DNA of 33,983 nt, from IMG/VR virus record IMGVR_UViG_3300036770_005726, positions 1 through 33,983 of that record; one strand, given 5' to 3'. Origin of the DNA: a virus. The translations under genes were made by a program, and so were the position numbers. The notes under the pieces are model-generated. The model had not been told where the DNA came from and did not search any database. It was given only the letters and a program-made list of their open reading frames with translations. This document shows positions 5,795 to 11,651 of the stretch, in pieces; within the stretch, counting starts at the first letter, position 1; every line of letters begins with the position of its first letter.

Positions 5795-5821
5795 AACACC
5801 CGCTTCGGCGGGTGTTTTTTT
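5795..5821 (+). terminator. Rho-independent terminator after gene 32
   Basis: AACACCCGC-TTCG-GCGGGTGTT is a perfect 9-bp stem (5795-5803 with 5808-5816) with a TTCG loop and a T-run (5815-5821). The T-run overlaps the stop codon of the converging minus-strand gene. On the minus strand the hairpin has an A-run before it and no T-run after it, so it works as an intrinsic terminator only for plus-strand transcripts. Confidence 0.92.
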
Positions 5822-7889
5822 ATGTAACTCTGTTCATCAATGTTTTGCCAGAATCAGTTTTTGATCGTGCAGTCGGTGGTGGCATATTGTTTTGAACCAC
5901 AGTATTTGTAGTTTTTGGTGAATTAATGACAATTGGTGTTGTTGGCTTTTGTTGTCCTCGCTGACTAGCAGCCAAATCATTCGAAGCAGCCGCAACATCA
6001 CCACCAGATAGTGCTGATGATGTTGGTTCTGGTTGACCAATACTTTCTTTTTTTCCTTCTGCAAGATTCATTGGCTTGGCATCTTTACCTGCAACAAGAG
6101 TTGGTGCTCCTGGGTTGACAGGATTATCCGCAGTAGGTAAAGTACCAATTGGTTGAATGTGCCAGTTTTCTTTTGCAACAGGTCGTGTAAGACCAAACTT
6201 CTCTAACCAACCTGTAGGACTCTCTCGGTCACCGGCGAGAACATTGATGCCTGCTGGTCCTTTTGAATTGATATCAATTGCAAGACCTTTGAGGTGAAAA
6301 CTGCCCTTGCCTTTGCCGAGAGGCGGCATTGGTTCTGCGACCATTTTTCTTGTTTTGGCACGATCACCACCGAACTCTTTGAGTTTTGCATTGAATAACT
6401 CAGCCTGTTTTTCATTACTACGAGAGGCTGATGTAATAAGAAGTTTTTTGCCAGTTTGTTCTTTGAAGGCTGTTGCCATTGCTGTCAGTCGTTTCTGAAA
6501 CTCTGGATGCAAACCAGACATATCAACACCAGATTGTGTCGATACCACAGAAGTAAGAGATCCACCAATCTGTTTTTCTGGACCTTCTGCGGCCTTTCCT
6601 GTTGGTGCCGGTGGTTGTTCAGTAATTGGCTTTGGCGCTGGCGCAGGTGTAGGCGCAACAGAAGGCCTTGCGGGTGCTGGCGCAGGAGGTGGTGCTGGCG
6701 TTGGTATCGGTGCTGGTGGTTCTATTTCACCAGTTCGGATATCTTCACCAAATCCAGTTTGAACAGGTCTACCTTCAGAATCAACTAATACGCCCTCTTG
6801 CGGTGCTGGTGTTGGCGCTGGTGTCGGTGCAGGCGGTTTAGGTGGAGACGGTTTTGGTGGTGGCGCTTCGGGTTCAGGTATGTAAGGTTCGTCTTCTATA
6901 CCACTAATCATTGCATCTGCCGCAGCACCTTCTTCATAACCAGGTGTAACAGGTACAGGTTTCTTTTTTTCTTCTTTTTTTTCTTCTGGACTTTTTGCAC
7001 CAGTAAGAGCTTTTAAAGCAAGAACTGGAGGTAAGTATTTAACTATCGGAGTGTCTAGTGCATTTTCAACATAAGGTTTGATAAAATCTTTAAACTTTTG
7101 AAAACCTTCTTTTACCTTATCAATTACACCCATAAACTTATCAAAGACACCCTTAATAAATTCGACTACAGGTTCAAAGAACTCTTTTATCTTTGCAAAT
7201 TTCTCGGCAACCCATTCTCCCACCGAAGTGAAAAATGCTGATATCTTTTCAATGACCTTATTGAATATTTCTTTAACATTTTCAATGATTGGCTGAACGG
7301 TTTCATCAAACCAATTTCTCATGTATTGAACAAACTCATCAAATTTTTCTTTGATAGTTGTCCAAAGATTATTTGCCCACTCTTTGACTTTCGCTACAAA
7401 ATCATCAAAAAAAGTTACAACAAAAAGTGTGACAAGAGCGCCAAGTGCCAGATATTTTTTTAGTTTGTCAAATATCGTTGATGGTTTGTTTTCGTCTTTG
7501 AGTTTTTCTTGTGTAATGATTTGTGTTGGTGCTGCAGCTTCTTCTTTTTCTTCTTTTTTGAAAAACTCTAAATCTTTTGCTCGTTCTTCTTCAGATTCTA
7601 CAGCAAGTTTCTTTTCTCTTTCTGATGCCTTGAGAAATTGAGCATCGGCACCTGTTGCGGCTTTTCCACCCATGACCTTGACCAACTGTTGTGCGTTTTG
7701 ACGAGCAACATTTAAGTCACGAGCAATTCCAGGCAAAGACATGAAATTCTTTGCAATAATTTTTGCATTGATTTGAAACTCTTTGACACTTCGATCTGGT
7801 GTTGGTGAAGATTCTTCTTTGGTTTCACCACCAGAAAAAGGAAGTTTAGATTTGATTGATTCTTTGAGTGAATCTGGTATGAGTGCCAT
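5820..7889 (-). CDS. Large virion protein with M15 (D-Ala-D-Ala carboxypeptidase-like) domain; tape-measure candidate
   Basis: 689 aa. Residues 43-112 form a conserved block (SLPGIARDLNVARQNAQQLV, KAATGADAQFLK) shared with the upstream neighbour. Residues 147-161 are strongly hydrophobic. Residues 160-280 are a long amphipathic helical stretch rich in Trp, Phe and Lys. Residues 340-430 are Pro/Ala linkers. Residues about 459-583 look like a peptidase M15/VanY domain: SASRS (487-491), SFHLKGLAIDIN with presumed zinc ligands His532 and Asp539, and ENWH with His577. A low-complexity Asn/Pro C-terminus follows. M15 enzymes cut peptidoglycan peptides, so this may open the wall during DNA entry. 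It is the last gene of the minus unit; ATG overlaps the previous stop (TAATG). The position after gp26/gp51 suggests a tape measure, an inference. Confidence 0.75.
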   Translation of the reverse strand: MALIPDSLKESIKSKLPFSGGETKEESSPTPDRSVKEFQINAKIIAKNFMSLPGIARDLNVARQNAQQLVKVMGGKAATGADAQFLKASEREKKLAVESEEERAKDLEFFKKEEKEEAAAPTQIITQEKLKDENKPSTIFDKLKKYLALGALVTLFVVTFFDDFVAKVKEWANNLWTTIKEKFDEFVQYMRNWFDETVQPIIENVKEIFNKVIEKISAFFTSVGEWVAEKFAKIKEFFEPVVEFIKGVFDKFMGVIDKVKEGFQKFKDFIKPYVENALDTPIVKYLPPVLALKALTGAKSPEEKKEEKKKPVPVTPGYEEGAAADAMISGIEDEPYIPEPEAPPPKPSPPKPPAPTPAPTPAPQEGVLVDSEGRPVQTGFGEDIRTGEIEPPAPIPTPAPPPAPAPARPSVAPTPAPAPKPITEQPPAPTGKAAEGPEKQIGGSLTSVVSTQSGVDMSGLHPEFQKRLTAMATAFKEQTGKKLLITSASRSNEKQAELFNAKLKEFGGDRAKTRKMVAEPMPPLGKGKGSFHLKGLAIDINSKGPAGINVLAGDRESPTGWLEKFGLTRPVAKENWHIQPIGTLPTADNPVNPGAPTLVAGKDAKPMNLAEGKKESIGQPEPTSSALSGGDVAAASNDLAASQRGQQKPTTPIVINSPKTTNTVVQNNMPPPTARSKTDSGKTLMNRVT

Positions 7890-9955
7890 TAAATTTTAAT
7901 ACCACCTAGAATATTCGCAAGGTCTTCATTAAACACGCTTGCTGTTTGGTTCTTTGGTTGTTGACCCATTGTTCCTGTTGTATTATTGGTAACTGGAGCG
8001 TTGACCATAGACCCAACATCTGCCGCAGATTCCATTCTTTGTGCTTCGGCAACTTCAGATGATGCGGTAGACAATGATGATCCAGACGTAGGAGGCTCTG
8101 CTGTAATAGGTGCTGGCGCAGTATCAGAAGCACTGGCAGAAACGGTCCCACCGCCTCCTCCACCGCCTGAGGGTGTAGCTGAAGGTGCAGATGGGGTTGA
8201 TGGTGATGCTGGTGCAGATACCGAACCACCATCAGAAGATTTTAGGGCATCAATTTCATTTTGAAATCCTTTGTTTGTTGCCTCCATTTCTGCCTTTTCT
8301 GATTTGAGTGTGGCATCATAATCATCCTTGAGTTCTTTTACTCTCTCTGGATCGTTTGCATATCTTTTTGAAAATCCTTCAATATGTCTCTTAGCACTTT
8401 CTTCTCGCCTTGCAAATCTTCTCTTGTTTCTTTCAATGTGATCTTCTAATTGTTTTATCTTTTCTTCTTTTGACAATGCAGGTGCTGGTGAAGGTGATGG
8501 CGGTGGTGGTGCAGGCATTGCCTCAGCCGGTGTTGGTTCTTTTGGTGCTTCAAGTGGTACACCTAGAGCACCAGCAGCACGACCTGTAAGTGCCATGTTG
8601 AGATCATAGTTTCGTTGTGCTTGATCAAGTGGTATACCTTCAGTAGTAAGAGGTACAGGAGATTCTGGTGTTGGTGGTGGCGTAGGATATTTTTGTTCAA
8701 ACTCTTTTGCTTTTTCTAACATCGCACCAAAACCACCGGTCTTACCAGATTCAAGAATACCTTTGAGGTCACCCATTGCACCTTTTGGTACACCTGCTTT
8801 TTCTGCCATTGCTGTTATGTCTTTTTCACCAACTTCTTTTGTTGGATCAAGACCAGCCGTTTTCATCATTTCAGCTTTAGCTGCTTCTGCTTTTTCTTTG
8901 TTTGGTAAAAACTCTTTTGTATCAGGCATTGCTGGTTTCGTTTTATCAATTTTTGCTGGTGTGTCGTCCTTTATTTCAACGGTGCCACCAAATAGTTTGA
9001 TGAAGAAGTTTTTGATGCCTGTAAATATTTCAGATATCTTGTTCATGATTGGATCAAGAAACGATGACACACTATCAAAAACATTCTTGAGTTCGTCTTC
9101 ACCAACAAGACCAAAGGTGATGAAATCTAACATACCACCAAGGCCTGCAACGATGGCATCTTTGAAACTTCCTGTCTCTTGATATTTTTTGAAACCAGCT
9201 GTGATACCAGAGAATAATGTTGCAATGATTGTCAATGGTAGAAATACTTTAGAGAAAACTTTTCCTAAAATCTTCGTGAGTTTTCCACCTGTAAATAATT
9301 TCTTAAAACCGGATATAAAGTTCTTTGCAAAATCAGGTATGAAAGAACCAAGAAAACCACCTTCTTTCTTTTCTTCAGGTTTTTCACCAGAAATTATAGT
9401 GGCCTTTTGGTCACCGCCACGATCCTCCATTGCAGATTCACGAGCATCTTCTGTTTTGAAAAAATCAATGTCTTTTGATCGTTCTTCTTCAGATTCGACT
9501 TCTACCTTCTTTTCTCTCTCACTCTCTTTAAGAAATTGAGCATCAGCACCAGTCGCAGCCTTTGTACCTTTGTCACCCAATATCTTCACCAACTTTTGAA
9601 GATTTTGTCGTAGAACATTCATGTCTCTTGCAATACCAGGTAGAGACATTGAGTTCTTGGCAATGATTTTCATAGTCGTAACATCAATGACTGCGCCACC
9701 ACCAGTTTTTCCAGAATCTATTCTTTCTGGTTGTGTTACTGGTTTTTCTTTTGATGGTTTCTTTTTGACACCAAACTGAGAACGAATGGCAGCAGAGATG
9801 ATATCATCACCACCAAAGAATGACCGAACAAGGTTATCTTTAGAGAATGTTTTACCAATGTCTTTCATTGTGCCAGCCGCAGCACGACCTGCACCACCGA
9901 CAAAACCTTTGCCCGATTCTACTTCTGAAATATATCTGGATGCGAAATCTGCCAT
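7889..9955 (-). CDS. Large virion protein, paralogue of the downstream gene; tape-measure candidate
   Basis: 688 aa. Residues 96-168 (SLPGIARDMNVLRQNLQKLV, AATGADAQFLKESEREKK) align with residues 43-112 of the downstream 689-aa protein, so the two are related by duplication. Gly-rich N-terminal 30 residues, a hydrophobic segment at about 236-252, helical middle, Pro-rich linkers near 430-500, a highly charged coiled coil near 500-580 (EDHIERNKRRFARREES) and a Ser/Gly/Thr-rich C-terminus. No peptidase motif is visible. It lies directly after gp51 and overlaps its stop (TAATG). In lambda-like gene order the tape measure follows the tail chaperones; at about 0.15 nm per residue 688 aa would give a tail near 100 nm. 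No similarity to T4 gp29 was recognised. Confidence 0.75.
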   Translation of the reverse strand: MADFASRYISEVESGKGFVGGAGRAAAGTMKDIGKTFSKDNLVRSFFGGDDIISAAIRSQFGVKKKPSKEKPVTQPERIDSGKTGGGAVIDVTTMKIIAKNSMSLPGIARDMNVLRQNLQKLVKILGDKGTKAATGADAQFLKESEREKKVEVESEEERSKDIDFFKTEDARESAMEDRGGDQKATIISGEKPEEKKEGGFLGSFIPDFAKNFISGFKKLFTGGKLTKILGKVFSKVFLPLTIIATLFSGITAGFKKYQETGSFKDAIVAGLGGMLDFITFGLVGEDELKNVFDSVSSFLDPIMNKISEIFTGIKNFFIKLFGGTVEIKDDTPAKIDKTKPAMPDTKEFLPNKEKAEAAKAEMMKTAGLDPTKEVGEKDITAMAEKAGVPKGAMGDLKGILESGKTGGFGAMLEKAKEFEQKYPTPPPTPESPVPLTTEGIPLDQAQRNYDLNMALTGRAAGALGVPLEAPKEPTPAEAMPAPPPPSPSPAPALSKEEKIKQLEDHIERNKRRFARREESAKRHIEGFSKRYANDPERVKELKDDYDATLKSEKAEMEATNKGFQNEIDALKSSDGGSVSAPASPSTPSAPSATPSGGGGGGGTVSASASDTAPAPITAEPPTSGSSLSTASSEVAEAQRMESAADVGSMVNAPVTNNTTGTMGQQPKNQTASVFNEDLANILGGIKI

Positions 9956-10146
9956 TATCGTTTTCTAGTTTGTTTTTGTAACTCTATTCGTTCTTTTTCT
10001 TCTTGTAAATGTTTCACAAGAAGGTTTACATAGATGCTTCTTTCCCACGGTATCATGTTCTCAAGCTCAGTCAAACTGTATTTGTGATACTGCATTAGCG
10101 CAAAGTTTGTCTGATAGTAATTACCGAGAGTATCATAACGAAAAAT
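9955..10146 (-). CDS. 51: Baseplate hub assembly protein gp51, likely expressed by -1 frameshift from gp26
   Basis: The frame encodes TNFALMQYHKYSLTELENM followed by IPWERSIYVNLL, the typical gp51 pattern of T4-like marine phages, and ends with a charged helix. The stop overlaps the next ATG (TAATG). No ATG, GTG or TTG lies in the frame between the upstream in-frame stop and the conserved region. The first ATG (residue 18 here) would cut into it. As drawn, the gene begins at an ATT overlapping the gp26 stop (63 aa). There is no ribosome binding site at normal distance. The gp26 frame reaches this one by -1 slippage at 10152-10158, giving a 307-aa gp26-gp51 fusion. The frame is secure; how it is started is not. 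Confidence 0.8.
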   Translation of the reverse strand: MFRYDTLGNYYQTNFALMQYHKYSLTELENMIPWERSIYVNLLVKHLQEEKERIELQKQTRKR

Positions 10147-10877
10147 TAGACGAAAAAACTTTGCATACCCTTAATCGTAATGTCTTCTTCATATGAACAT
10201 TTTGGGCATTTGAAGTGAACATCTTTTTTGATTTCGGGCATGGTGTCAAAGAAATCTTTAAACTTCTCCAAATCTTTTTGTTGAAGATTGTCAACGAATT
10301 CTTCCAGTTCTTGTCTTGGTGTATCTTTTGCATAATAAATCTGTTCTTTATCGTACAGATAGTCGATACAATCAACCAAAATACGAATCATTACATCATT
10401 GACATTTAAATCATCGTATTTTTCAAGCATCTCAAAATTAGGATACTTGAGACAAACACCAAGATTTTCGGTCAGTTGAATTTTATTTTTGTGTTCAGGA
10501 TTCTTTGATGGTTGAACTTCTAGAAGGTTTAGATCGAATTCAACCACACCAGTACACTTCTTTTCCTCACCACTTTCATCTTTTGTGGTATTATTGCACT
10601 TGTATCGCAGATTGACAACTTCTTCTACAGACCTCGCACGAAGATTCATGAAAAGATATTCAAGGTCAAATGTTGGTAAACCATCAACATCAATCTCATC
10701 AAGAATACAATTCTTTAAAACTTGACGAATGGTACTAAGTGTTTCTTTTGCATCATTTGATTCAGAAGCCATAAGAAACAGTTTTTGTTCTTTGACCAAA
10801 AAAGGACGAAAACGAACAGGATTTCCTGTCGAGATCAAATTGACAGAATAAATTGGTACATCGATTTTAGGTAACAT
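10146..10877 (-). CDS. 26: Baseplate hub protein gp26 (T4 gp26 family)
   Basis: 243 aa. The opening MLPKIDVPIYSVNLISTG, the RPFLVKEQKLFLMA block and DLEYLFMNLRARSVEEVV are typical of the T4 baseplate hub gp26 family. Cys94 and Cys108 plus Cys224 and Cys227 (CPKC) probably form one zinc site. The minus-strand ATG is preceded by GAGGA. In T4 gp26 and gp51 are needed for hub assembly and are thought to act with the tape measure gp29. The final codons carry a slippery heptamer that could fuse it to gp51. It lies between the gp54-like gene and gp51 within a continuous minus-strand run. Confidence 0.9.
   Translation of the reverse strand: MLPKIDVPIYSVNLISTGNPVRFRPFLVKEQKLFLMASESNDAKETLSTIRQVLKNCILDEIDVDGLPTFDLEYLFMNLRARSVEEVVNLRYKCNNTTKDESGEEKKCTGVVEFDLNLLEVQPSKNPEHKNKIQLTENLGVCLKYPNFEMLEKYDDLNVNDVMIRILVDCIDYLYDKEQIYYAKDTPRQELEEFVDNLQQKDLEKFKDFFDTMPEIKKDVHFKCPKCSYEEDITIKGMQSFFV
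10152..10158 (-). other. Candidate -1 ribosomal frameshift site (T TTT TTC) at the end of gp26
   Basis: In the gp26 frame the end reads AGT-TTT-TTC-GTC-TAA. T-TTT-TTC is a classical X-XXY-YYZ slippery heptamer in the correct phase. Slipping back one base continues into the gp51 frame without meeting a stop. AAGGG lies nine nt upstream (10168-10172), close to the position of the internal Shine-Dalgarno stimulator in E. coli dnaX. I did not find an obvious downstream hairpin by eye. Confidence 0.6.
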
Positions 10878-10898: not shown

Positions 10899-11651
10899 TT
10901 AGAAAGCACTTCCTACTGGAAAAAATCTGGTGGCCGCAGAACCAAATAGAGCCGTTGCTGCAGCACCAATATTGTAATTGCCATTGTAGACAACACGATA
11001 CTTTTGAAAAGCAAACTGAATTGATAGACGATGAAAACCATCTTCAGACCAACTTAGTGCTTGTGGTGCTACACCGATTGGAAAAGCATCCATGAGTTCT
11101 ACTGCAAAAATTTGTTTGATAAATTCGTCATACTGAATAATTTTGATGTTCGTGAGGTATCGAGATGATTGTCCTTTTGGAAATCTCAAATTGTTTGTAT
11201 CCGTAGGCATGACCGATTCCATCCAACGTTCAAACAATTTTCTTTCGTAGAATTCATTGGTACACAGAAAAGTTAATGTTGTATCGGCGTATTGTGTTTG
11301 ATAAGGTACTTTAAAGGTTGGTCCATAAATCTTAACATCAGCTGTCGCAAATGTTTTACCTGGTAATTCAGCAGCTTCACATTGCAAAGCTAGATATCTC
11401 GACAATGATGCATTTGATGTTTTTGAGTATTCGTCAGTTTGTTGGCCACCACGGCCAAGAGCTGAGTTGATGGCATCGGTCACCGTTCCAAAAATAGAGT
11501 TTGGAAAGTTTAGAATTTTTTCTAAGATAGAGTTGCCAACAAATTGATTCACATAAGGTGGAATTGGTAGAATGACTTCAAAACGATTTGGTTTTGCAAG
11601 ACCATCTTTTCCACGAATATTCGCAAGAAATAGGTTTGGAGAGAATGACAT
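10899..11651 (-). CDS. 54: Baseplate tail-tube initiator gp54-like protein (gp19/gp54 tube fold)
   Basis: 250 aa (T4 gp54: 320). ATG directly follows the upstream stop. Patterns include LAKPNRFEVILPIP near the N-terminus, ALQCEAAELPGKTF, the FERWMESVM segment, and the C-terminal MDAFPIGVAPQALSW followed by LSIQFAFQKYRVV. These are the landmarks of T4-type tail-tube fold proteins (gp19, gp54, gp48 cap). Its place beside gp26 and near gp48 favours gp54, on which the tube starts to polymerise, over the major tube protein gp19, normally near the sheath gene. A Gly/Gln-rich loop near residue 65-80 is extra. The identity as gp54 rather than another tube-fold protein is moderate. Confidence 0.72.
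   Translation of the reverse strand: MSFSPNLFLANIRGKDGLAKPNRFEVILPIPPYVNQFVGNSILEKILNFPNSIFGTVTDAINSALGRGGQQTDEYSKTSNASLSRYLALQCEAAELPGKTFATADVKIYGPTFKVPYQTQYADTTLTFLCTNEFYERKLFERWMESVMPTDTNNLRFPKGQSSRYLTNIKIIQYDEFIKQIFAVELMDAFPIGVAPQALSWSEDGFHRLSIQFAFQKYRVVYNGNYNIGAAATALFGSAATRFFPVGSAF

Follow-up and report, generated by a model that had tools for sequence, protein, structure and literature searches.

The closest described systems are the tail-assembly chaperone (TAC) genes G and GT of phage lambda, with equivalents in HK97, P2, and Mu, in which slippage by -1 where the upstream frame ends yields a short and a long form. Systems of this type make both products, the long one at a few percent; they serve tail assembly and are absent from the virion. 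The slippery heptamer of lambda is G GGA AAG, and the genes lie in the order V, G, T, H. A -1 frameshift is also found in dnaX, where a Shine-Dalgarno-like (SD-like) element precedes a seven-base slippery site, A AAA AAG, by about 10 nt and a strong hairpin lies downstream. Among T4-like phages, tail-assembly chaperones were named by Vladimirov, Gautam and Davidson (2022, Virology 566:9-15), a study represented here by papers that cite it. The paper on phage Adele (PMC12846349) credits that study with polyT -1 signals in T4-like TAC-N genes, and the paper on PRFect (PMC10885494) cites it for a short gene and a long fusion gene in some T4-like phages; going by the T4 profile comparisons described below, we read the genes meant as gp26 and gp51. 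In the TAC of Vandenendeviridae/Andersonviridae (phage Adele), the -1 frame is always open and a polyT motif ends TAC-N (PMC12846349). T4 gp51 is required for assembly and is absent from the particle (review, PMC3004832). In cyanophages, gp51 has only about 20% of the length of T4 gp51 and is without its first ~200 residues, a deficit for which the 2010 comparison that reported it gave no frameshift explanation (PMC3037559). No description of a gp26/gp51 frameshift in cyanophages was found in the literature searched, in which the 2022 study was known through its citing papers. The gp51 frame is unannotated in deposited cyanophage genomes such as those of ACG-2014d and S-SSM6b (L082 2184-2387, L085 2166-2399).

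The DNA analyzed here, called the window, is the whole 33,983-nt stretch of IMG/VR virus record IMGVR_UViG_3300036770_005726, from an uncultivated T4-like virus. The lambda order V, G, T, H corresponds in the window to tail tube, gp26, gp51, and a tape-measure-like gene, with the tube in place of lambda V (Table 1); gp26/gp51 are thus placed between tail tube and tape-measure-like genes, the first of which is assigned by position and a weak match. The ATG of the 688-aa gene overlaps the gp51 stop (TAATG), and the VanY match in the 689-aa protein (E=2e-5) is just below the cut-off. The 688- and 689-aa proteins (5820-9955, minus strand) share a paralogous N-terminal block, KIIAKN.MSLPGIARD.NV.RQN...ATGADAQFLK.SEREKK..VESEEER.KD..FFK, and form tandem tape-measure-like genes.

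Table 1. Coordinates of features at the gp26/gp51 locus of the window.
Feature	Position	Strand	Evidence
689-aa tape-measure-like protein with VanY-type peptidase domain	5820..7889	-	many tape-measure phrogs, best 1e-9
688-aa candidate tape-measure protein, directly downstream	7889..9955	-	position; weak tape-measure phrog match, E=0.049
gp51 frame (-1), predicted to extend the long form at its C terminus; 65 codons, the first after the slip being CGT	9955..10152	-	phrog_634, T4 gp51 match
gp26 stop TAA, three bases past the heptamer	10146..10148	-	direct reading
gp26 ORF, predicted short form of the tail-assembly chaperone (TAC-N), 243 aa, 28.5 kDa	10146..10877	-	PF12322, phrog_150, fold match
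Putative slippery heptamer T TTT TTC, in phase with gp26 (X XXY YYZ)	10152..10158	-	kept in 154/154 relatives
AAGGG, SD-like element, nine bases ahead of the heptamer	10168..10172	-	anti-SD pairing energy, codon bias
Tail tube protein (gp19-like), upstream neighbor	10899..11651	-	phrog_45 tail tube, E=3.9e-33

The window gp26 contains the Pfam T4_baseplate domain (PF12322, E=1.8e-58) and matches phrog_150 (E=7e-65). Read directly on the minus strand, its 3' end is ATT AAG GGT ATG CAA AGT TTT TTC GTC TAA. The sequence-only reading had placed an in-phase T-TTT-TTC in the last gp26 codons with AAGGG nine nt upstream, and both are seen in the sequence. The heptamer differs from that of lambda and from the GTTTTT motif of Adele-type TACs. 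The open stretch of the -1 frame begins 22 nt ahead of the gp26 stop and runs to a TAA at 9957..9955. It matches phrog_634 (E=2.9e-26), which is annotated "baseplate hub assembly catalyst". The downstream ORF overlaps gp26, is conserved, and is in the -1 relation, as in the lambda G/GT type. A -1 slip at T TTT TTC would give a fusion of exactly the 307 aa that had been predicted, with a computed mass of 36.6 kDa rather than roughly 35 kDa. The earliest ATG, GTG, or TTG in the gp51 frame is an ATG within the conserved core (...NFALMQ...), so that the earlier claim of no start codon ahead of the core, checked by direct reading of the frame, holds for the window. Compared with lambda-type TACs, the window gp26 has about 100 more residues, along with an additional domain and Cys pairs, and the extension comprises only 65 codons.

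The likeness to lambda-type TACs lies in the first ~90 residues of gp26. In a structure model of the window gp26 (mean pLDDT 86.4), residues 1-93 matched the three solved TACs, 3fgx (Z 7.7), YqbN, 3klu (Z 7.3), and HK97 gp13, 2ob9 (Z 7.2); 83-85 residues were aligned at an rmsd of 3.5-3.9. The next matches were 5ir0 (Z 6.1) and then unrelated chains at Z 4.6 and less. Foldseek ranked the three TACs highest in probability with E-values that, taken alone, were not significant, which makes the fold test one of moderate strength; at that strength, the model suggests a TAC fold for residues 1-93. A search of PDB sequences with the gp26 profile found no relative. PDB 5ir0, which matches residues 5-90, is the Vibrio cholerae PICI-like-element protein ORF19 and may be the form that a tail-assembly chaperone takes in a satellite.

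Relatives were collected from IMG/VR by the gp26 protein, by profiles built on gp26 and on the gp51 frame, and by the proteins of distant relatives, and cultured-phage loci were taken from GenBank. Among the first 268 loci, 247 carried gp26 and the gp51 frame on a common strand, every one in the -1 relation; those without a gp51 match either stop within 64 nt past the gp26 stop or belong to the Ackermannviridae. Outside T4-type loci, the -1 gp51 frame overlaps gp26 in all fetched loci with enough sequence (245; 154 distinct), and it does so too in isolates in which the profile had no hit. When one broken gp26, a single short locus, and near-copies were taken out, 154 distinct junctions (<90% nucleotide identity) were left. 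Protein identity to the window falls as low as about 28-40% in these relatives, which share ancestry; the counts given for them are not independent events, and the figures carry no kinship correction.

The sequence-only reading had proposed looking for the heptamer in related phages, and an in-phase T-TTT-TT(C/T/A) with gp51 in the -1 frame was found in 154/154 distinct relatives. The codon before the first Phe ends in T and the first Phe is TTT in every junction; the last heptamer base is C in 113, T in 34, and A in 7. With the amino acids fixed and codons drawn at the frequencies of each gene, the heptamer would be expected in about 62/154, and at other Phe-Phe pairs of the same genes xxT TTT TTY occurs in only 9/161. 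The conservation of the heptamer is far beyond chance. The heptamer starts 10 nt ahead of the gp26 stop in 128 of the 154 and 7 nt ahead in 18, and it is retained in five relatives whose gp26 stop is further downstream. The carriers include cultured cyanophages and phages of several proteobacteria (P-SSM2, S-PM2, S-SSM6b, ACG-2014d, phiM12, Astolliot, C48C1, Cr30, SRB7757, ValKK3, Yut3, phiWae14, LPCS28, and ME01). Within the Straboviridae, it is kept in ValKK3 (Schizotequatrovirus) and LPCS28 (Nanhuvirus).

The locus resembles dnaX in the SD-like element ahead of its slippery site. Relatives carry an SD-like stretch (GGAGGG, AAGGG, and similar) 7-9 nt upstream of the heptamer, and SD-like 4-mers are present in 141/154 junctions. 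Mean anti-SD pairing energy is strongest, at -5.85 kcal/mol, when the paired window ends 7 nt upstream; the background is +0.85. This signal owes much to a conserved Glu/Lys-Gly, as synonymous shuffles reach -4.5 versus -5.9 kcal/mol. Codon choice at the site is nevertheless biased beyond what Glu/Lys-Gly conservation gives: GAG accounts for 49/87 Glu codons there versus 22% elsewhere (p=9e-12) and AAG for 24/36 Lys codons versus 30% elsewhere (p=8e-6), both p values being without kinship correction. Unlike dnaX, the gp26/gp51 heptamer is not followed by a conserved hairpin. None is predicted after it in the window (z +0.28), and the signal across the 154 relatives is weak (mean z -0.8; 29/154 below -2); a conserved downstream hairpin was therefore rejected, only some relatives having one. 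Strong hairpins occur right after the gp26 stop in S-PM2 (z -8.2), P-SSM2 (z -3.4), and some contigs (L084 downstream of 1489; L083, L174, L202, L208).

T4-type loci (T4, PM2, and IMG/VR relatives) served as a negative control. In 11/11 loci with the gp26 end covered, a twelfth being cut off there, gene 25, rather than gp51, comes after gp26, and the slippery heptamer is absent from all 11 gp26 ends. T4-type gp26 often keeps the Phe-Phe, written GAG TTC TTT or similar. The gp51 of these phages is a protein of about 249 aa encoded on the opposite strand. In T4, gp51 residues 1-201 make up a full PF12322 domain (E=3.9e-52), the protein matches window-type gp26 in profile comparison (E=5.4e-12), and residues 200-247 match the profile of the window's gp51 frame (E=8.8e-9); T4 gp26 is paralogous to T4 gp51 (E=1.7e-12). 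Since T4 gp51 contains both a gp26 domain and a gp51 domain, it is the long form, and the short form, T4 gp26, comes from a second gene; the window "gp51" matches no more than the last ~48 residues of T4 gp51. PF12322 and the C-terminal helices are in one chain in T4 gp51, whereas in the window one chain depends on the predicted frameshift; T4 gp51 is a naturally in-frame counterpart of the fusion predicted for the window. T4 itself does not frameshift, nor do the Tevenvirinae have a slippery site; the long form has a gene of its own in T4 and would come from a predicted frameshift in the window and most relatives. The earlier proposal to unify T4 gp26/gp51 with G/GT is to be corrected on this point, and the link of the T4 pair to tail-assembly chaperones had already been published. 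In the tree, the T4-type short and long copies form two separate clades on long branches. A fold search with a T4-type gp51 model gave no TAC match, which does not count against the TAC fold.

The other exception lies in the Ackermannviridae and their kin. CBA120, Ds23CZ, YC, and Vibrio 1.244 of that family, Vibrio phage D510, which is similar to it, and Aeromonas phage TSW001 all retain a -1 frame in which a ...MPW... core can be recognized, and the heptamer is absent from all six (L092 2220-2402, L276, L269, L273, L093, L270). Four of the six have a TAATG overlap; CBA120 and TSW001 have neither TAATG nor heptamer and likewise no ATG for the extension. Ackermannviridae-type gp26 branches within the frameshifting group (support 96/96), and the heptamer has therefore probably been lost in this lineage. 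Only this group includes relatives that combine a normal ATG with the lack of a slippery site, an outcome that the sequence-only reading had named as evidence against itself; elsewhere the heptamer is kept, also in loci with an ATG.

Taken together, the sequences indicate that gp26 and the gp51 frame very probably constitute one tail-assembly-chaperone gene, expressed as short and long forms through a -1 ribosomal slip. The phase, the heptamer, the SD-like spacer, and the conserved -1 frame support the lambda G/GT-type frameshift first suggested for the window, and the T4-type control, the predicted TAC fold of gp26, and the gene order fit it. We infer that ribosomes slip here, the proportion that do so, and what each part does. 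Most ribosomes would end at the TAA and release a 243-aa product, the short form (TAC-N), as lambda does with gpG. A minority would pair with the upstream AAGGG, pause on T TTT TTC, and slip one base back, rereading TTT TTC as TTT TTT, and would continue to the 307-aa long form (TAC-NC, like gpGT) with its gp51 domain. If the labor is divided as in lambda, the gp26 part would wrap the product of the next gene, the tape-measure protein, and tail tube subunits would be brought in by the gp51 part.

Translational coupling, in which a ribosome finishes gp26 and restarts in the gp51 frame to make a free gp51 of ~60 aa, is an improbable alternative. An ATG lies near the gp26 stop in P-SSM2, S-PM2, ValKK3, Cr30, and others, where gp51 is annotated as separate, and the Ackermannviridae have TAATG overlaps and no heptamer. 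From the heptamer onward and ahead of the core, however, the gp51 frame has an ATG in only 23/154 relatives and any of ATG, GTG, or TTG in 66/154; the window and 88/154 relatives have none of the three, and 131/154 have no ATG. Because some relatives do have such a start, the missing start codon is a property of the window and not universal, yet relatives that do have an ATG keep the heptamer too. The SD-like element is positioned for the heptamer and lies about 24 nt from the P-SSM2 ATG, and in T4 both domains form one chain, all of which argues for the ribosomal slip over a restart.

Transcriptional slippage, by which RNA polymerase would add or skip a U in the T run and so place gp26 and gp51 in one frame in a share of the mRNAs, is very improbable. 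Runs of 8-9 Ts are long enough for polymerase slippage, and 18/154 relatives have a run of 8 or 9, where it may still occur. In 120/154, however, the run has exactly six Ts, a short stretch if polymerase is to slip efficiently; 113/154 have C as the third base of the second codon, and the SD-like element, which acts on the ribosome, lies at the right distance. A homopolymer sequencing error in a truly single ORF, for which one could cite the error-prone nature of six-T runs in some methods and the single ORF of T4, is refuted by a conserved stop codon, which in 149/154 relatives begins no more than 6 nt past the heptamer, and the identical break recurs in all 154 distinct junctions as well as in many genomes of cultured phages that come from different laboratories.

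As far as the citing papers tell, the idea of a frameshifted T4-like TAC is largely published (Vladimirov 2022), and the window is a well-supported further example. What is added here is the wide conservation of the heptamer, together with the SD-like element, the control for codon usage, and the exception in the Ackermannviridae, all of which may overlap with that study. Three routes to a short and a long chaperone may exist among T4-related phages, namely, -1 slippage on T-TTT-TTN in most lineages, aided by an SD-like stimulator and lineage-specific hairpins; gene duplication with an in-frame long copy in T4 and the Tevenvirinae; and a third route without the heptamer in the Ackermannviridae. 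We consider this scheme as a whole evenly balanced between right and wrong.

The gp51 "baseplate hub assembly catalyst" of many marine and freshwater viruses is very probably the tail of gp26 and not a free protein, which would account for the cyanophage gp51 having ~20% of the length of T4 gp51 (PMC3037559). The frameshift is a known trick of tailed phages, kept here in almost all relatives outside two families, and the locus offers a clear case in which a recoding signal and a gene duplication would substitute for each other among related phages.
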